A stretch of 36,598 nt of DNA from Clostridia bacterium (GTDB lineage: Bacteria; Bacillota; Clostridia; Christensenellales; Aristaeellaceae). The DNA lies in NCBI GenBank assembly GCA_017938795.1, contig JAGBAV010000007.1, positions 1-36,598 on the forward strand. The letters run 5' to 3'. The notes under the pieces are model-generated. The model did no database searches. It saw only the letters and a program-made list of their open reading frames with translations, and had not been told where the DNA came from. How positions within the stretch are numbered: the first letter of the stretch is position 1; each line of letters begins with the position of its first letter. The position numbers were made by a program, and so were the translations under genes. This document shows positions 20,558 to 28,436 of this stretch, piece by piece.

Positions 20558-20587
20558 AGAAAAAGGGAGGAGCCGCGCTCCCCCCTT
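20558..20587 (-). terminator. Terminator of the five-gene chaperone operon
   Basis: An 11-bp stem with one G-U pair (20563-20573 with 20577-20587) and a three-base loop lies 16 bp past the stop of the last operon gene. On the minus strand it is followed by a run of T corresponding to the A-tract at 20560-20562. This separates the operon from the flavodiiron genes transcribed in the same direction. Confidence 0.8.
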
Positions 20588-20603: not shown

Positions 20604-21626
20604 TCAGGTGATCCTGCCCATGGCCGTCATCTGCTTCTGGCGGATCTCCTCCAGCTGCCGGATCAGGTCATCCACAACCGGCGTCGCCCGCGGGAGATCG
20701 AAGAACACCTTCTTCATCTCATTCGCGGCCTCGATGGAGCAGGTGAGCACCCTGTGCTGATTCTGCATGTCGATGACATACTGATGCATCACCTGAAAGA
20801 CCTTCACCGTCCCCGGGCTCTCATAGCCCTTGACCAGCTGGATCCGGCGGACAGGCTCGGTGACGGTATGCCACTGCTGCAGCGCCGCCATGACCTCGCG
20901 GTGGAGCACCATGCACGCATGGTATTCCATGGTCGCGGCGAGCCTGCCGCAGGCGGCGGCCACAGCCTCCGCAAGGCGGCCGCTCTCGTCCTGATGGCGC
21001 AGCTCATACTCGCCGACCAGCGCGTCGAGCATGGGGCTTCTGGTCTTGTCATAATGGCGGGCGACGAGGGCGATGACCCCGCATGTCTGCGCGCCGGGCA
21101 TGGCGTCCAGCCGCTCGAGCAGGCGATGGACGACCGCGCGGCGCAGCGCGGCGAGCCTGTCCGCGATATCAGCGATATCCGTCAGCAGCTGCATGCCGGC
21201 GCGGCGGCGGCTGTCGTTGATCTCCGCCATGATGCGCTCCGCCGTCGCCTCGTCCGATGCGATCGCGATGCTCGCGCAGAGCGCATAGCCCGCGGCGGCG
21301 TTGGGCAGCTCCCACGCCTCCAGCAGCACGCGGCAGGCATTGAGCCGCGCGAGCGCGCCCATGCCGTCAAGCGGCGGGAAGGGCGCGGGCTCCGCCGAAT
21401 CGCCATAGGCGAGCAGCGCCTCCGCCCGTTCGCTCCCCACCCCGGGGAACCAGCTCATCTCCGCATCCAGCCTGCGCTGGGAATTGAGCAGCGCGGTGAG
21501 CGCCGCCTCCGCCCCCTCCGTGCCGAAGAGCGCCGCCTCGTCCGCCAGCGCAATCAGCCGGCGGCGCTCGTCGTCCGTGGATGCGCCGAGCGTGCGGAAG
21601 GGATTTTCATGAATCGATTTCAGCAT
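20604..21626 (-). CDS. Helical protein with a J-like N-terminus, last gene of Hsp70/AAA+ operon
   Basis: This 340-residue soluble protein has no family I can name with confidence. Residues 1-60 (ENPFRTLGAS..., then RRL.AE..WFPG) recall the first part of a J-domain or a PFR-LG domain that accompanies Hsp70-like genes, but the HPD tripeptide that activates Hsp70 is absent. The remainder looks almost entirely alpha-helical, with many alanine- and leucine-rich amphipathic segments and no signal peptide or membrane span. A GGAGGA site precedes the ATG. It follows the zinc-ribbon membrane protein by 22 bp and is the last gene before the terminator. An adaptor that delivers substrates to the Hsp70 or AAA+ partner is a reasonable guess based on context, not proof. 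Confidence 0.8.
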   Translation of the reverse strand: MLKSIHENPFRTLGASTDDERRRLIALADEAALFGTEGAEAALTALLNSQRRLDAEMSWFPGVGSERAEALLAYGDSAEPAPFPPLDGMGALARLNACRVLLEAWELPNAAAGYALCASIAIASDEATAERIMAEINDSRRRAGMQLLTDIADIADRLAALRRAVVHRLLERLDAMPGAQTCGVIALVARHYDKTRSPMLDALVGEYELRHQDESGRLAEAVAAACGRLAATMEYHACMVLHREVMAALQQWHTVTEPVRRIQLVKGYESPGTVKVFQVMHQYVIDMQNQHRVLTCSIEAANEMKKVFFDLPRATPVVDDLIRQLEEIRQKQMTAMGRIT

Positions 21627-21648
21627 ACGTCCTCCTCCGTCCCCGGCG

Positions 21649-23376
21649 TCAGCGGGCGATCTGATCCAGCGCGTCGTCCAGCGCGTCCATCATATCCGCC
21701 GTATGGAACGCCCCGACGCGGTTCTCCACCATCATGGTCATCATCCGGTTGTCGCCGAACGCCAGCCTCCATTTCGGGTCCGCGCAGGGCGCGGCCTCCG
21801 TCACGGCGTACGTAAGATGGCGCGCAGCCGGGTCGGCCGTGCTGTAGGCGGCGATGGCGTTGATCGCGGTGAAATACGGGTAGCTCGTCTTGATATCGTG
21901 CTTCTTCCCGTCCATGGAGATATAGGTGGTAAACGAATACCTGCCCGCATGCCGGTAGACCGCGTCCGCGATGATGACCGCCGTCGCCTCCTCCATGCTG
22001 CGCGCAGGCGTCATGCCCTCCTGCGCGAAGAGCGGCCCCGGCAGCAGCCGGACGGTGTATTTGCCCGCATCGCTGCGCTTATGCACGGGGGCGATGAGAT
22101 CAAATCCATAGAGCTCCTCATACGGCACCTCGTCCCGGGCGAAAAGCAGCGCCGCAGACAGATCCGCCCGGCCGGTCTTTGCGTCCTCCGCGTCCGGCCA
22201 GTAGGCGGTCAGGTCGGCGTCGGTGACGGTCACGCCGTCCGGATAGACGGCGGACAGGTCGAGCCCCGCCTCATGCAGCGCATGGCAGTAGATCAGCTGC
22301 GCGTCGATCAGATGGAGCTCCTCGCCCAGCCTGCGGGCATGCGCCGCCCGGTCGCTGCCGGTGTAGCCGATGGCCGCCTGCGCATGCTGCAGCGCCAATC
22401 CGCTCATCAGCTCCCTGTGCCTTGCCGTGCGCGCCTCGCCCTCCGGCGTCAGCATCAGGCGCTCCATCGCGCCGGCATAGTCGCCCGCCGCCTCCAGCGC
22501 GGCGACCCACGCCCCGCAGACCTGAGCGGCCGCCTCCCGCGCATCATCCGCGAGCAGATGCAGCGGCGCGCTGTTCGTGCGCTCCCCGGCGTCCTGCTCC
22601 GCATGCTCCGCGACGGACATATACAGGGCGTACGCCTGCTCATAGTTTTCCTGCTCAGAGAGCGCCTTCGCCTTCGCCATCTGCGCGTTATAGCTGCCCA
22701 TCAGCCCGCGCCTCGTGTGCGTCAGGTGCGCGTTCTTTTCATAGATCGCCTGCGCCTCGTCATAGCCGCCGGCGGCGAGCAGCGCATCCGCCTGCCTGAA
22801 CCGCATCGGGATGACCACATACTCAAACAGGAGCAGCAGCAGCGCGACCGACGCGGCCACGGTGAGGCAGATCCTGTTCCGCCTGCGCCGGGCGCGCTTA
22901 GCCTCAGCCTGCCGCTCGGCGCGGGCCTTCTCCTCCCGCTCCTTCATCTCCCGCAGGCGCTCCTCGCCCAGCCGCACCAGCTCCGCCGCCTCGGGATGGA
23001 CGGACATCGCCTGCATGGCGATCACGGCGGACTGGATGCGCCCGCCATAGATCTGCTCCTCCCGGATGGTCTTCGCCGCCTCGGCAAAGGCGGCGTCCGC
23101 CTTCGGCGCGATCACCGCAAGGCGCTTGTCCGCATCGCGATAGCCGCCAAGGCGGGCAAATGCCAGCCTCGCGGCGAAGAGCCCCTCCGTCCTCCGGCTC
23201 TGCTCCTGCTGCACGGCGTACTGATACAGCGGCTCGCGCCAGTCGCTGACGGGATTGCGCTGCTCCGGCTCAGCCCCCGGCTCCGGCTCACAGCGGCACA
23301 TCGGGCACAGCCCCTTCGGGTGCTCCGCATCCGCCGCATAGGAGCCCCCGCATTTCCGGCACACATATACCATCAT
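21649..23376 (-). CDS. Zinc-ribbon, single-span membrane protein with TPR-like external region
   Basis: This 575-residue protein begins with a rubredoxin-like zinc ribbon (C6, C9, C24 and C27 in CRKC...CPMC). A helical region with highly charged KEREEKARAERQAEAKR repeats follows, then one membrane span (about 168-190, preceded by RARRRR). By the positive-inside rule the ribbon should be cytoplasmic and the 380-residue C-terminal part outside. That part starts with TPR-like helical pairs (ADALLAAGGYDEAQAIYE, KALSEQENYEQAYALYM) and ends in a mixed alpha/beta segment with no motif I recognise. AAGGGG precedes the two adjacent ATG codons. The gene lies 23 bp after the AAA+ gene. It could anchor the chaperone complex to the membrane and sense the cell exterior; that is inference. 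Confidence 0.82.
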   Translation of the reverse strand: MMVYVCRKCGGSYAADAEHPKGLCPMCRCEPEPGAEPEQRNPVSDWREPLYQYAVQQEQSRRTEGLFAARLAFARLGGYRDADKRLAVIAPKADAAFAEAAKTIREEQIYGGRIQSAVIAMQAMSVHPEAAELVRLGEERLREMKEREEKARAERQAEAKRARRRRNRICLTVAASVALLLLLFEYVVIPMRFRQADALLAAGGYDEAQAIYEKNAHLTHTRRGLMGSYNAQMAKAKALSEQENYEQAYALYMSVAEHAEQDAGERTNSAPLHLLADDAREAAAQVCGAWVAALEAAGDYAGAMERLMLTPEGEARTARHRELMSGLALQHAQAAIGYTGSDRAAHARRLGEELHLIDAQLIYCHALHEAGLDLSAVYPDGVTVTDADLTAYWPDAEDAKTGRADLSAALLFARDEVPYEELYGFDLIAPVHKRSDAGKYTVRLLPGPLFAQEGMTPARSMEEATAVIIADAVYRHAGRYSFTTYISMDGKKHDIKTSYPYFTAINAIAAYSTADPAARHLTYAVTEAAPCADPKWRLAFGDNRMMTMMVENRVGAFHTADMMDALDDALDQIAR

Positions 23377-23399
23377 CGCTTATCCCCTTGATGCATCGC

Positions 23400-24803
23400 T
23401 CAGTCAAAGCCCATGCGCCGCTTCGGCTTGGTGTCCCCGCCGAGGCCGTCGCACGCCGTCTCCAGCAGCTTAACATCCACAGACGCCCTGCCGCAGCGCA
23501 CGGCCAGACGGCCGGCCTCCTTGACGACGAAGGCCACGTCGGCGATCTGCCTGCCCGTCAGCCTGCGCGCCAGCGCATCCAGCCGCAGATCCCCCGTCGT
23601 GGGGATCTTCTCCAGCATGCCCTCCAGCAGGCTGCGCACCTCCTGCGTGGAGGGCATGCCGACCTCGATGATATGATCGAAGCGGCCCCTGCGCAGGATG
23701 GCCTTGTCGATGGAATCCAGCATATTCGTCATGCCGAAGAGGAGCACGCGGTTCTTCGACGCATCCGGGATGCGGCGCAGGAACTCCGCAACCTCCTCCA
23801 TATGGATCTCGCCCGCGCCCCTTGCGCTCTCACGCGAGGAGAGGAACGCCTCCAGCTCGTCGATGATGATCACCGACGGGGCGTTGGCGATCGCCTGATC
23901 GAAGACCTCCGAGACCTTCTTGCTGGTCTCGTGGACATACTTGCTGCCGATCGTGCCGGAGGTCACGCGATAGACCGGCCAGCCCAGATACTCCGCCAGC
24001 TGATCCACGGCATACGTCTTGCCGCAGCCGGGCGGGCCATAGAGCAGCACCGCGCCGGGGAAGCCCACGCCCATGCGGCGGTACGCCTCCTCGTTATCGA
24101 TGACATGCAGCAGCTCCTCGCGGATGAACCGCTCCAGCGCGGGGCGGCCGGACAGGCAGAACGGCCCCTCAGCCCGCTCCCTGCGCGGCGCGATGGCGGC
24201 GGCAGCCTTTGCCTCCTGCTCCATCGTGGGGATGACGCTCGCCGCGCCGGCGTCCGCCGTCAGATCCAGCCGGGCGAGGATGCTGCTGAGCACGCCCTCC
24301 GTCAGCCACGGCGCATAGCGGCGCACGCGCTCCGTATCCGTCACGGGGATATTCACCCCGCCCGTCAGCCAGCGCCCCAGCACGCGGGCGTCGTCCTGCC
24401 CCTGAATGCCGGTGAAGGTCGGCAGCAGGACGGAGAACTGCGCGATATACAGCGCATCCCCGAAGGAGACGCGCCCGAAGCGCTCGCGCGTGCGCAGCAG
24501 CGTCTGCAGGAAGGCCTCGGCCTGCTCCCGCCGGGAGGGATAGGGCCCATGCTCCACGGAGGAGATCATCGACCCGGCAGGCGCACACCAGACGAGCAGA
24601 TCCTCCCCGGTCTCCATGAACAGCCCCGGCTCCAGCCAGTCGCGGTCCAGCCATGTCTGATGCAGCCGCGCCCGCACGGCGAGCGCATAGCCGCCCTCCT
24701 TCGTGGTGTACAGCTGCCACCGTTCGCCGCGGACGTACAGCCCGCTCACGCTGCTCCCGTCCGGGAGGACGTCGTTTGCCGCCAGCCAGCGTTCCTCTGC
24801 CAT
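23400..24803 (-). CDS. AAA+ ATPase of the Hsp70-linked operon
   Basis: This 467-residue protein has a C-terminal AAA+ domain (about 225-440) of the classic substrate-remodelling type. Walker A is GPPGCGKT with K262, Walker B is VIIIDELEAF with D315 and E316, and a likely arginine finger lies in RRGRFDHIIEVG. The domain resembles those of FtsH, proteasomal and spastin-like ATPases, but there is no protease domain. The first 200 residues are a separate domain without recognisable motifs and probably bind partners or substrates. An AGGAG site lies within the end of the Hsp70 gene, only 5 bp upstream, so the two are translationally linked. It probably forms a ring that unfolds or disassembles substrates handed over by the Hsp70; the partnership is inferred from the operon. 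Confidence 0.88.
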   Translation of the reverse strand: MAEERWLAANDVLPDGSSVSGLYVRGERWQLYTTKEGGYALAVRARLHQTWLDRDWLEPGLFMETGEDLLVWCAPAGSMISSVEHGPYPSRREQAEAFLQTLLRTRERFGRVSFGDALYIAQFSVLLPTFTGIQGQDDARVLGRWLTGGVNIPVTDTERVRRYAPWLTEGVLSSILARLDLTADAGAASVIPTMEQEAKAAAAIAPRRERAEGPFCLSGRPALERFIREELLHVIDNEEAYRRMGVGFPGAVLLYGPPGCGKTYAVDQLAEYLGWPVYRVTSGTIGSKYVHETSKKVSEVFDQAIANAPSVIIIDELEAFLSSRESARGAGEIHMEEVAEFLRRIPDASKNRVLLFGMTNMLDSIDKAILRRGRFDHIIEVGMPSTQEVRSLLEGMLEKIPTTGDLRLDALARRLTGRQIADVAFVVKEAGRLAVRCGRASVDVKLLETACDGLGGDTKPKRRMGFD

Positions 24804-24808
24804 ATCAC

Positions 24809-27286
24809 TCAGCTCCTGACTATATTCACGTCGTCGTACATGTCCTCGCCGCTGCTTCCCGTCCTCTTCTCCTGCAGCGCAAAGAGCTTTGAGAGGACGC
24901 CGCGCAGGGCGTCGATATTGCCGTTCTCCATATGGGCGATGCCGTCCGCGCGCAGGCGGTCAAACGCTGCCCTGTCCGCAAACCGCTCCGGATGGGAGAT
25001 CTGCTGCGTGAAGTTAAAGCGGATGATATTGTCCTGCCGCCAGAGGATATTGGAGATATGCCCGCGCATCTGCTCCATATGCGCGTCAAAATCGGGCGAG
25101 TCGCGCTCGATCGCCATGCGCGCCTCCGCGATCAGATTCTCGAATGCGGCGATCTCGTAGGCCTGCGCGTGGCTGCGCTCGGACTCAAACTCGGCGATCC
25201 GCTTCTCCAGATCGATGCTGCGGATGGCCTTGCGATTGCTCTGGCGCAGGCGGGCAAGCCTGCGGCGGCAGTCGAGCAGGTCGTTCGCGGCGGCCGCAAT
25301 CGCCTCCGGATCGGCGCTCTGGGCGGCGTACCTCGCCTCCACCGCGGCGGTGCGCACGCGGTCCAGCTCCGGATCGCTCACGCGCATGCGCATCTCGACC
25401 GTGCGGCGCAGGATCTCCTCCGCCTCGGCGAGCACGCGGGAGGGGTCCTGCACGTCGGTCTGCCCGTCCGCGCGGCTGTAGAAATTCTGCCCGGTGAGGC
25501 TGATGCCCGCGCACGGGACGGAAACGCCCAGATGCAGCGTGCCGGATTCATTCATCTCATACTCGCAGATGATCTCCGCGCCCGCGGGGATCACGCCGGA
25601 ATAGAAGCTCGTGCCGGGGATGCGGAAGGTGCCGATATAGCGGTTATCCTCGATGGGCTCGCGGATCGCGCCCTCCCAGAGGGAGAAGACGAGCGCGCCG
25701 TTCGACCCGGCGACCAGCGACTCCCCCGCGCGGAAGGTGACCGTGCCGCGCTTGGGCAGCAGGTCATTCTCCTCCACCAGATAGACCGGCACGGGCACGC
25801 CGCCGATCCTGTCCAGCGCCTTGACCGCGATGGGATGCGAGGCGGGGATGGCGCTGACCGTCGCCAGCGTGCGCACGATGGCAAGACGGCTCTCCGGGAT
25901 GGTCACGGGCATGCCGTCCGCGCCGTAGACGTCCACGCGGAAGAAGTTCTCGCCCTTATACATCAGCGGCACCTCGATGATCACGCGGCGGCCGATCTTC
26001 GTCCTACCGGAGACCCAGCCCGTATCCTCGCAGGTGATCTCCGCGCTCAGCCCCTCCGCGCCCGCGCCCGCGACGAACGCCACGCGGCCCTTATCCGCGC
26101 TGGTGCGCTTCTCATAGCTGATCTTCAGCGCCTCCAGCGCGTTCATTTCATCGCGCGCGGCCTTGCGCTCATGGCGCTCGCTCGACCAGTCGATGGACTC
26201 GGCATAGATCGCCGCGCCCTCGGCGACGGCGGTCATCGGGTTGACCTCCACGCCCGCGCTCACGCCCAGCGCCTGCGTCACCTGATCGCGCAGGGGCTTA
26301 TAGCAGGTCGGGCCGCCGACGAAGACGATCTGCTCCACGGCGTCGGGGGTGAGGCCGGCCTTCTTCATGGTCTCGCGCGTGACCTCGATGGTATCGTTGA
26401 TCATCCCGGCGATGAGCCCGTTGAGGATATCGCGGGTGAGCGGCACGTCCAGATAGATCTCCTCGCCGTCCAGATCCAGCGCACCCAGCCGCGCTTCGTC
26501 CATGCGCACGGCGGACGTCTCCGCGGCGGAGAGCTCGATCTTCGCCTGCTCCACGGCGAGCATCGCAAGGCGCGTCACCTTGCGCACGGTCGGGTCGGTC
26601 GGGTCATCCGGCAGGCGGAAATGGCCGCGCAGCCACGGCTCGACAACCTTGCGGAAGATCATGCGGTCCCAGTCGCGCCCGCCGCACATCTCCTTGCCGC
26701 CCTGCACGAGCAGGCTCACGCGGCCGGCGACGCTCTCGGCGACGGTGATATCGAACGTGCCGCCGCCCAGATCGTAGATCAGGAAGACCTTCTCCCGGTC
26801 ATCCTGCTTCATGACGCTCATCACCGCGGCGACCGGCTCCTGCATCAGCGCGACGCGGCCAAGCCCTGCAAGGCGCGCCGCCTCGAGGGTGGCGTCCTTC
26901 TTCATCTGGTTGAACGCGGCGGGCACGGTGATGACCGTCGCGGTCTCCTCGCCTGTGCGGACCTCCTCGGGGAGATAGCCGTAGAGCACGCGCAGGATCT
27001 CCGCGCTGCAGGCCTCCGGCGTGAGCTCGTCGCCCGTCGCCTCGAAGGTGAAGATCTTGCCCGTGCCCATATAGCGCTTGAAGAGGGTGGCCGAGTTCTT
27101 TTCATTCATCGGGGCCATCTCATAGGCGCGGCGGCCGTAATAGCGGCGGCCCCGCTTATCCACGCAGATCGCGGAGGGGGTGACGTCGCTCTGCTCCGGG
27201 CTCTTGAGGATCTGGGTGTTCCTGCCGTCGTAGGCGCAGATGACGCTGTTGGTCGTGCCCAGATCGATGCCGATATAGTGATCCAT
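24809..27286 (-). CDS. Divergent Hsp70 (DnaK-like) chaperone with extended helical C-terminus
   Basis: This 825-residue Hsp70-family ATPase is longer than housekeeping DnaK (about 610-640). The start at 27286 follows GGAGGAC; the longer frame from 27301 adds only five residues. The nucleotide-binding domain is complete: DLGTTNS at 8-14, the phosphate-2 loop YDLGGGTFD near 172 and the adenosine motif FVGGPT near 322. A degenerate linker region follows. About 505-590 matches the beta substrate-binding domain (NDLLPKRGTVTF, then DNRYIGTFRIPG). A long helical, partly coiled-coil tail (about 615-818) replaces the normal lid and ends YDDVNIVRS rather than the usual acidic EEVD-like tail. It is probably a specialised chaperone, not the cell's main DnaK, since no normal grpE-dnaK-dnaJ order, HrcA or CIRCE element is seen. 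Confidence 0.92.
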   Translation of the reverse strand: MDHYIGIDLGTTNSVICAYDGRNTQILKSPEQSDVTPSAICVDKRGRRYYGRRAYEMAPMNEKNSATLFKRYMGTGKIFTFEATGDELTPEACSAEILRVLYGYLPEEVRTGEETATVITVPAAFNQMKKDATLEAARLAGLGRVALMQEPVAAVMSVMKQDDREKVFLIYDLGGGTFDITVAESVAGRVSLLVQGGKEMCGGRDWDRMIFRKVVEPWLRGHFRLPDDPTDPTVRKVTRLAMLAVEQAKIELSAAETSAVRMDEARLGALDLDGEEIYLDVPLTRDILNGLIAGMINDTIEVTRETMKKAGLTPDAVEQIVFVGGPTCYKPLRDQVTQALGVSAGVEVNPMTAVAEGAAIYAESIDWSSERHERKAARDEMNALEALKISYEKRTSADKGRVAFVAGAGAEGLSAEITCEDTGWVSGRTKIGRRVIIEVPLMYKGENFFRVDVYGADGMPVTIPESRLAIVRTLATVSAIPASHPIAVKALDRIGGVPVPVYLVEENDLLPKRGTVTFRAGESLVAGSNGALVFSLWEGAIREPIEDNRYIGTFRIPGTSFYSGVIPAGAEIICEYEMNESGTLHLGVSVPCAGISLTGQNFYSRADGQTDVQDPSRVLAEAEEILRRTVEMRMRVSDPELDRVRTAAVEARYAAQSADPEAIAAAANDLLDCRRRLARLRQSNRKAIRSIDLEKRIAEFESERSHAQAYEIAAFENLIAEARMAIERDSPDFDAHMEQMRGHISNILWRQDNIIRFNFTQQISHPERFADRAAFDRLRADGIAHMENGNIDALRGVLSKLFALQEKRTGSSGEDMYDDVNIVRS

Positions 27287-27315
27287 GCTGCTGTCCTCCA
27301 TGGTGATTGATGATC

Positions 27316-27693
27316 TCAGCGGGCGGGGGCGAGCATGACGCTGCCCGTGCGCAGGACGGCCCCGTCCTTCATGATGACGGGCTCCACCATCTGCGCGACG
27401 ACGAGCTCCTCCTCGTCGAATTCATCCGCATTGAGCGCGGTGACCGCCATGCCCACGCTGTAGGGCTGGCCGGTGAGGTCAACCGTCTGCATGCCGGCAG
27501 AGGCGAGCGCGGCGTCCACCCGGCGCTGGAACCAGTTATACTGCCCGGCGAACCGTTCCGCATCCATCGGGGCCATGCGAAGAGTCGCCTTCTGCGCCAC
27601 GCGGGCGAGCCTGTACGCCTCCACGGCGATATCCGCCAGCGCCTGCACGGTATCCGCACCCTGCGCGTCCTGATTCTTCCTGCCAAAGAGCAT
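27316..27693 (-). CDS. Small GrpE-like protein, first gene of Hsp70/AAA+ operon
   Basis: This 125-residue protein starts MLFGRKNQD. I chose the ATG at 27693 because AAGGAG lies nine bases upstream; the frame is open to 27801, but that would run into the promoter. The N-terminal half (to about residue 65) is helical. The C-terminal half follows a pattern (GQPYSVGMAVTAL..., E-E-L-V-V-A, PVI..GAVLRTGSVMLA) reminiscent of the beta-domain of the nucleotide exchange factor GrpE, in which a conserved FDP/H region is followed by a terminal G-x-V strand. The match is weak and the usual GrpE signature is not fully met. Its place directly before an Hsp70 gene (29 bp gap) supports a nucleotide-exchange role, but this remains a hypothesis. 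Confidence 0.72.
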   Translation of the reverse strand: MLFGRKNQDAQGADTVQALADIAVEAYRLARVAQKATLRMAPMDAERFAGQYNWFQRRVDAALASAGMQTVDLTGQPYSVGMAVTALNADEFDEEELVVAQMVEPVIMKDGAVLRTGSVMLAPAR

Positions 27694-27766: not shown

Positions 27767-27795
27767 ATTATACACGACGGCGTATAAAAACTCAA
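27767..27795 (-). promoter_or_regulatory. Sigma-A promoter of the five-gene chaperone operon
   Basis: On the minus strand TTGAGT (27795-27790), a 17-bp spacer and perfect TATAAT (27772-27767) lie about 75 bp before the first ATG. A perfect 7-bp inverted repeat (27721-27727 with 27737-27743) sits in the leader just upstream of the ribosome binding site. No CIRCE or CtsR heat-shock operator is visible, so heat-shock control through those known repressors is not supported. Confidence 0.8.
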
Positions 27796-27832: not shown

Positions 27833-27850
27833 ACCGCCCACATGCGGGCA

Positions 27851-28347
27851 GGCGGGCAGTGCCCGCACCCACTTCCGGCGGGCGGTGCCCGCACCCACTT
27901 CCGGCGGGCAGTGCCCGCACCCATTTCCGAACCGCTCTGCTATTCGTCATACTCTGTGCCCGCTGCACGATGCCATGCTGCGTTCGCGCGGAGGGCGCTC
28001 CGCAGCGCGGCGGGCGATGCCCGCGGCCATTTCCGAACCGCTCTGCTATTCGTCATACTCTGTGCCCGCTGCACGATGCTGTGCTGCGTTCGCGCGGTGG
28101 GCGCTCCGCAGCGCGGAGGGCGAGAACGGCGGGCGGAGCCCGCGGCCATTTCCGACAGGCGGAGCCCGCACCCGCTTCCGACGCGGCTTTGCCGGGCGGC
28201 GGTACGTTTATACGCGAGGCCGATGCCATGCTGCGTTCGGCGGGCAGTGCCCGCACCCATTTCCGAACCGCTCTGCTATTCGTCATGCTCTGTGCCCGCT
28301 GCTCGATGCTGTGCTGCGATAGGCGGGCGGGGCCCGCACCCACATCT
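27851..28347 (+). repeat. Eight interspersed copies of a 26-bp palindromic repeat
   Basis: The unit GGCGGGCAGTGCCCGCACCC plus ACTTCC occurs at 27851, 27877, 27903 (three in tandem), 28009, 28128, 28154, 28239 and 28322. Each has the inverted repeat GCGGGC/GCCCGC or a close variant. Between copies lie longer modules; one, starting GAACCGCTCTGCTATTCGTC, follows the units at 27929, 28035 and 28265. Gaps between units are 0, 0, 80, 93, 0, 59 and 57 bp, so this is not a CRISPR array. The first seven copies keep the period of exactly 26 with substitutions only. All three plus-strand frames remain open through parts of it, but the predicted peptides merely echo the repeat, and I see no ribosome binding sites. 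It occupies most of the 630-bp gap between genes. Confidence 0.85.
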
Positions 28348-28436
28348 GATTCACCCGATGATCTGAAGAAGCCCTGCGCCTGCGGCAAGGGGGTTCACAC
28401 GATTTCCCATAGACAAGAAAGGCGGCGATCATCCAT

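Follow-up and report, generated by a model that had tools for sequence, protein, structure and literature searches.

The window analysed here is a stretch of 36,598 nucleotides from a Clostridia bacterium of the family Aristaeellaceae (contig JAGBAV010000007.1 of assembly GCA_017938795.1), whose genome assembly is 79% complete and consists of 156 contigs. It carries a cassette of five genes, all on the minus strand, as are all cassette features given below. In the direction of reading these are gene 1 (27316..27693), gene 2 encoding a divergent Hsp70 (24809..27286, or to 27301), gene 3 encoding an AAA ATPase (23400..24803), gene 4 encoding a membrane protein (21649..23376) and gene 5 (20604..21626). 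With the ATG at 27286 taken as the Hsp70 start, the intergenic gaps are 29, 5, 23 and 22 bp, in agreement with an earlier interpretation made from the letters of the window without database searches (the sequence-only reading). This ATG is preceded by GGAGG and agrees with the start positions in relatives, and AAAGGAG, which resembles a ribosome-binding site, is found upstream of the gene 1 ATG at 27693. A sigma-70-type promoter-like site (TTGAGT-17-TATAAT, 27767..27795, 10 of 12 consensus matches) and a terminator-like hairpin with a T run (20566..20585, a pattern match) are present at the places claimed for them before. As bare consensus matches both kinds of site are weak: 3 promoter-like sites are found against 0.9 expected, and 8 terminator-like sites against 2.6. 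Base composition does not separate the cassette from the rest (GC fraction 0.63-0.69 versus 0.58-0.67 elsewhere). Only two domains of the five proteins are recognised by Pfam above its cut-off, the Hsp70 nucleotide-binding domain (NBD; PF00012, E 9.5e-54) and the AAA domain (PF00004, E 1.6e-31). Genes 1, 4 and 5 of the window have no Pfam match above cut-off.

The Hsp70 has a length of 825 residues from the ATG at 27286 and 830 from 27301; residue numbers here follow the 830-residue form. The Pfam match covers residues 10-368. An AlphaFold2 model calculated from a 29-sequence alignment (predicted local distance difference test score, pLDDT, 85.8) shows the NBD, followed by a beta sandwich of residues 383-477 (25871..26155), a second beta domain of residues 481-605 (25487..25861), helices up to residue 813 (helical region 620-813, 24863..25444) and a C-terminal strand. 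The tail NIVRS (24812..24826) is conserved in the family. By secondary structure assignment of the model with DSSP and by alignment with the DnaK of the same genome, the first beta sandwich is an insert in the region of the interdomain linker. The second corresponds to the substrate-binding domain (SBD) of DnaK. Residues 478-612 score 26.5 against the DnaK SBD in hhalign, with 100 shuffled controls reaching at most 20.8, and residues 372-480 give no match to the DnaK SBD by the same method. The best 50 Foldseek matches of the model are all Hsp70 or Hsp110 chains or complexes. Those with the lowest E values (1.5e-33 and above) are DnaK models with an overall root-mean-square deviation of 15-24 Å, so the domain arrangement is unlike that of those DnaK models. 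A closer superposition is obtained with BiP bound to AMP-PNP (PDB entry 6zmd), with 4.0 Å over 641 columns including gaps. The NCBIfam DnaK equivalog is not reached (196 versus a cut-off of 648 bits).

Alignment of 83 family members with the DnaK of the window's genome shows which DnaK residues are kept. The equivalents of D10, K70, P143, E171, T199 and D201, which we take to be the residues serving ATP hydrolysis, are each retained in 83 of 83 members, in agreement with the nucleotide-binding motifs noticed earlier. The residue that contacts the J domain is not retained. The equivalent of DnaK R167 is Ala151 in the window (26849..26851), and across the 83 members it is Ala in 78, Glu in 2, Ser in 1, Thr in 1 and Val in 1, but never Arg. 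The N170 equivalent is Gln and the T173 equivalent is Val in all 83. As a comparison, a housekeeping-DnaK motif was recovered in 30 of 34 other loci scanned, and R and N are present in all 30 of these sequences, which were taken as housekeeping DnaK. The linker is interrupted by the insert: the place of V389 holds Leu, Ile or Val in 83 of 83 members, and that of L391 is gapped in 82 of 83. At the place of D393, Asp is found in 71 and Glu in 6 of the 83, and Ser in the window Hsp70. Passages of two papers (PMC7289447, PMC13012618) report that D35 of the HPD motif (histidine-proline-aspartate) of DnaJ contacts DnaK R167, that DnaJ D35N suppresses the DnaK R167A defect and that D393 belongs to the same J-linked residue network.

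The other side of this contact would lie in gene 5, which encodes an all-helical protein (AlphaFold2, pLDDT 94.5). In the model its first 57 residues form short helices that could correspond to those of a J domain. Compared by hhalign with 48 varied J domains, residues 8-57 (21456..21605) reach a probability of 43 and a score of 23.2, while 200 shuffled controls stay at or below 15.3 and other stretches of the protein at or below 16.0. An earlier and narrower comparison with 27 DnaJ-type rows gave a score of 17.3, which was exceeded by 1 of 100 shuffles. No J protein is recognised in gene 5 by Pfam, a sequence search of the PDB gave nothing significant, and in Foldseek nothing reached E ≤0.001 and the best 50 matches included no J protein. 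The gene 5 N-terminus is probably a degenerate J domain, for which the profile comparison gives moderate support. HPD is absent from the N-terminal segment in 80 of 80 gene 5 homologues. Of the proposal that the last gene encodes a J protein without HPD, the lack of HPD is hence firm and the J homology moderate. Because R167 is lost in 83 of 83 Hsp70s and HPD is absent in 80 of 80 partners, the HPD-R167 contact is altered on both sides, and we infer that it has been rewired.

Gene 1 encodes a protein of 125 residues. Its family (81 sequences) matches 29 GrpE sequences in hhalign with a probability of 92.9 and a score of 46.7, whereas 100 column-shuffled controls do not exceed 19.4 and the other cassette families do not exceed 18.0. 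With a looser setting gene 1 is collinear with GrpE through to the GrpE end, and no counterpart is found for the N-terminal part of GrpE with its long N-terminal helix. The Pfam family GrpE (PF01025) is weakly matched by 12 of 43 members below its cut-off (best E 0.0047) and not by the window protein. It is the commonest among the weak Pfam matches of these 43, each other family being matched by one member only. A sequence search of the PDB with gene 1 gave no match. By its profile, gene 1 is a minimal GrpE homologue, as the sequence-only reading had supposed, and would serve in nucleotide exchange.

Gene 3 encodes a single AAA module with an N-terminal part of its own. Walker A and Walker B, both noted beforehand, are invariant across 32 aligned members, as are N360, R371 and R374, and the C-terminal tail (I/M)GF is conserved. 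A profile search of the PDB gives VCP-like ATPases and their relatives, including Cdc48, as best matches; among the matches listed, they begin at about residue 208-246 and leave the N-terminal part unmatched. One AAA match is found in 467 residues, and this is not the two-module architecture with a middle domain that defines ClpB/Hsp100. Sequence comparison thus places gene 3 in the classic AAA clade, as a Cdc48/p97-like ATPase. The PADLOC model closest to its AAA domain is IetA (E 5.4e-32, residues 229-445), with TRIP13 weaker.

The zinc-ribbon and single-span layout proposed for gene 4 is found as described. Two CxxC pairs lie within residues 6-27, followed by a helical-looking part, an arginine-rich stretch, one hydrophobic span at residues about 166-187 (22816..22881) and a large outer part. 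From the positive-inside charge distribution its N-terminus is predicted to face the cytosol. No relative of gene 4 is found among the ORFs (open reading frames) of 91 tabulated sequences or in the 891-residue protein described below, a result that leaves wider collections unscanned. In many relatives the gene 4 slot is filled by another membrane protein family, here called g4p, which is nearby in 52 of 63 loci. The g4p N-terminus often bears a tag of the type GFxGLSxLVSxV and then a span. This tag is found in 35 of 6091 ORFs, all of them of the g4p family and so not independent, and in 0 shuffled ORFs. At an Acidaminococcus locus (L084) the cassette is followed by two proteins that start with a similar GFKGL stretch. 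A zinc-ribbon pattern is also seen close to the N-terminus in 27 of 85 gene 5 homologues. In a genome of the window's phylum (locus L184), one protein of 891 residues combines a zinc ribbon, a gene 5 homologue (E 4.8e-84 for that one sequence), a span and an outer part. This fusion points to joint action of the J-like protein and the membrane anchor, and the complex may thereby be tied to the membrane.

The cassette recurs in distant bacteria. Species genomes scanned with an alignment of four sequences yielded 96 relatives, of which 80 were kept, and further relatives are present in 5 viral contigs and 11 plasmid records. The counts from the genome and viral scans are minimum numbers, as both relied on two peptide patterns. 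Record titles place most of the 80 in Pseudomonadota; the remainder comprises Bacillota, Thermodesulfobacteriota, Nitrospirota, Poribacteria, a cyanobacterium and others. Many of the 80 are metagenome bins, which can hold foreign contigs. The window and 90 loci were tabulated with iterated profiles. The small gene, Hsp70, AAA gene and gene 5 homologue follow each other in that order on one strand in 62 of these 91, and several others are cut by contig ends. At loci with enough flank the small gene adjoins the Hsp70 gene in 79 of 80 and the AAA gene does so in 68 of 78; in 63 of 63 a gene 5 homologue is encoded, on either strand, within 7 kb of the Hsp70 gene. The small gene overlaps the Hsp70 gene by 4 bp in 57 of 79. 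A chance gene cluster is rejected, as the order is held in 62 of 91 and recurs across phyla. Placement of the window Hsp70 in a tree was not used because its row is long-branched.

Some loci deviate from this plan. Those without the AAA gene beside the Hsp70 gene are L016, L058, L064, L073, L080, L083 and L092-L095, and they include Poribacteria, a Prochlorococcus genome and Sinorhizobium. Mesosutterella multiformis has two sites on one contig (L083 and L088) with several copies of the small gene and Hsp70 and no AAA match, and one copy at L088 is broken.

The cassette is sporadic in the groups searched. Of 60 genomes taken as relatives, 59 gave no match (E ≤1e-5) to the part of the Hsp70 that follows the NBD. 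Close relatives were accordingly rejected as the source of the cassette, the single positive of the 60 being the window's own genome. The cassette is present in 1 of 29 genomes of the genus and in 2 of 398 of the phylum by the gene 1 profile, which matches once per genome in 20 of 20 genomes checked. Searching DNA with the Serratia gene, which would miss divergent copies, found it in 1 of 5426 Escherichia coli genomes. In plasmids, tblastn detects homologues in Shewanella, Aeromonas (in two pieces), Polaromonas and Vibrio that cover at least 97% of the Hsp70 at 45-47% identity; those in Sinorhizobium are more distant.

A housekeeping set of grpE, dnaK and dnaJ, separate from the cassette, lies on contig 127 of the host genome. 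The cassette Hsp70 is therefore an additional Hsp70, the possibility that it is the only DnaK of the genome is rejected, and the other four cassette proteins become candidate dedicated partners. A second DnaK-type Hsp70 is also seen in this genome, apparently split across contig ends (C109:3-1280 and C149:1-414). The sequence-only reading had named three findings that would speak against it, namely a gene order not conserved in relatives, small proteins of unrelated families and an Hsp70 that is the sole DnaK, and none of the three is seen.

Several copies lie on mobile DNA or beside defence genes. The E. coli copy shares a tRNA-Phe island with an integrase, rdrB of RADAR, a dptF fragment and cbtA. 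The Shewanella and Aeromonas copies follow genes for TnsA, a Mu-type transposase, an ATP-binding protein, a TnsD-family protein and TnsE, as in Tn7-like elements. The Polaromonas copy sits between a zorA cluster and genes for a helicase/ATPase, brxD and pglZ (Zorya and BREX). At L184 a cas3 ORF starts about 150 bp downstream of the cassette and is followed by cse1, cse2 and cas7 of a type I-E CRISPR-Cas system. Flanking proteins were scanned with PADLOC at a threshold of 1e-20, and families rather than proteins were counted. The control consisted of 111 proteins encoded at least about 17 kb away on the contigs that carry the cassette, in 16 of these genomes. The flanks match 36 families from 123 proteins and 66 from 115, the control 13 from 111. 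Among the matches listed, the flank families include Hma, Gabija, SoFic, DRT, Hhe, type IIG restriction, BilD and AbiEii, while the entire list of control models is AbiEi, mads, DinG, BrxH, SspA and DndA. Phage integrases account for 5 of 123 and 6 of 115 flanking proteins, and for at most 1 of 111 in the control. In the 21 genomes of the genus with matches at E ≤1e-60 to both genes flanking the window cassette (FprA-like and CoA transferase), the two are always on separate contigs, these assemblies being fragmented. Two further features of such surroundings were noted. The Aeromonas caviae plasmid Hsp70 is interrupted into two ORFs (L013:9013-11510), with mer genes and the Tn7-like element on the same stretch, and in a Clostridia bin (L074:10109-11728) a large serine recombinase near the cassette resembles cassette chromosome recombinases, below their cut-offs.

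The anatomy of the cassette has good support. In our reading the five genes form a single machine dedicated to protein remodelling, which travels as a mobile accessory module and is most likely directed against phages or other mobile elements, with a probability of about 0.5. The Hsp70 would bind a client through its beta substrate domain, with the minimal GrpE-like protein resetting the bound nucleotide. Recruitment or activation of the Hsp70 via the rewired contact would fall to the J-like protein without HPD, which would be tied to the single-span membrane protein. The Cdc48/p97-like AAA ring would then pull the client through its pore. Either a protein of the invader or the membrane protein of the cassette itself would serve as client; in the latter case the response would come from the variable outer domain of that protein. 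So understood, the cassette would be a membrane-tethered Hsp70/AAA unfoldase, and the odds are about even that it is an undescribed conflict system. A conflict role is the most likely purpose because the distribution is sporadic, mobile and partly linked to defence genes; defence itself, for which guilt by association with neighbouring genes is the argument, might be right in about one case of two. More tentative, at somewhat under even odds, is the full picture of a new immune system that travels on transposons and islands and gives immunity through protein unfolding: invader proteins, or a membrane effector once activated, would be passed to a Cdc48-like ring by an Hsp70 whose J contact has changed on both sides.

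Several observations weigh against this reading. No nuclease or other recognisable toxic effector is found by Pfam among the five proteins, and PADLOC run on them gives only AAA-domain matches (IetA, TRIP13 and weaker ones) below E 0.005. The AAA gene is missing beside the Hsp70 gene in 10 of 78 loci. The J-linked network is not lost entirely, because 77 of 83 members retain an acid at the place of D393. Many flanks contain ordinary genes, and the three scanned neighbours of the window copy are metabolic or transport genes. The PADLOC enrichment is an indication and not a formal test, because families were counted and Gabija helicase models count repeatedly.

Chaperone islands on mobile DNA exist, and transmissible heat-resistance loci are comparable. 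The cassette could likewise be a mobile protein-quality-control locus that, much as a transferable DnaK-ClpB pair would, rescues damaged proteins under stress by disaggregation or refolding, and the Hsp70, the small gene and the AAA gene are all homologues of chaperones or unfoldases. This is unlikely given the defence-gene-rich neighbourhoods of some relatives and the usual presence of a membrane protein of one family (52 of 63), and the annotated gene tables of the records retrieved list no gene named as a small heat shock protein, FtsH or Clp. The membrane protein could instead be the true object of the machine. The Hsp70 and the AAA ATPase would then act on a cytosolic N-terminal tag of the cassette membrane proteins, and a periplasmic, peptidoglycan-binding structure would be assembled or activated. 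The 35 tagged g4p ORFs, the two GFKGL proteins of L084, and an annotated peptidoglycan-binding protein and an RDD-family protein in L012 and L013 speak for such an envelope function. It is nevertheless doubtful, as window gene 4 is unrelated to g4p by profile and has no such tag by eye, and 11 of 63 loci show no g4p.

Much the least credible is an ordinary paralogue set of DnaK, GrpE, DnaJ and ClpB that works with the housekeeping system. The homology of the parts would fit it, but the losses of R167 (83 of 83) and HPD (80 of 80), the linker split by an insert and the single Cdc48-like AAA module in place of ClpB make it highly improbable. The cassette and the bichaperone of DnaK-DnaJ-GrpE and ClpB share an Hsp70 with a beta substrate domain, a GrpE homologue, a J-like partner and an AAA unfoldase. 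The cassette differs in lacking the HPD-R167 contact on both sides, in the beta domain within the linker, in its one Cdc48-like AAA module, and in its membrane protein, single operon and mobility. Judged by sequence, it is bichaperone-like in its presumed working, yet it falls outside what defines the DnaK-DnaJ pair and ClpB.

The preferred reading, a dedicated machine for conflict, was also compared with known systems. No Pfam, NCBIfam or PADLOC model describes the cassette, in line with the earlier remark that no standard named system has this gene set, and no description of such a cassette was found among the matches listed from the open-licence PubMed Central literature. GAP1-N2 GTPase systems are presented in Kaur et al. 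2020 (PMC7159879) as predicted conflict systems, a subset of which has HSP70, GrpE and partners fused to DnaJ. They centre on a GTPase with fibronectin type III repeat proteins, none of which is recognised in the cassette. What the cassette has instead is an AAA ATPase together with a J-like protein that lacks HPD, and no GTPase is matched among its five proteins in a Pfam scan made with no GAP1-N2 model. In CoCoNuT, according to passages of PMC11090510, the Hsp70-like CnuD belongs to predicted restriction systems, is fused or linked to McrBC-type genes and is predicted to hydrolyse ATP poorly at best. Compared with CnuD so described, the cassette Hsp70 has intact ATPase residues, and no McrB or McrC is recognised beside it. 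Cdc48/p97 (VCP-like) has the nearest AAA domain to gene 3 by profile, and gene 3 has one AAA module. IetA of IetAS is its closest PADLOC match, and no protease domain is found among the five cassette proteins.

The cassette makes a basic question directly testable, namely how an Hsp70 can be driven when the HPD-arginine switch is absent and its linker carries an inserted domain. If the reading of the neighbourhoods is true, a machine of chaperone and unfoldase would join the bacterial immune repertoire. The cassette is rare, yet it is found in several phyla and on laboratory-tractable plasmids.

Two minor features complete the description. A recurrent protein family of about 214 residues is encoded in or after the cassette in 13 loci (for example L018:16259-16903). 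In the window, GC-rich direct repeats at 27833-28349 lie between the cassette promoter and the CoA-transferase gene and form families of 46- to 106-nt units with 4-7 overlapping copies, often 26 nt apart.

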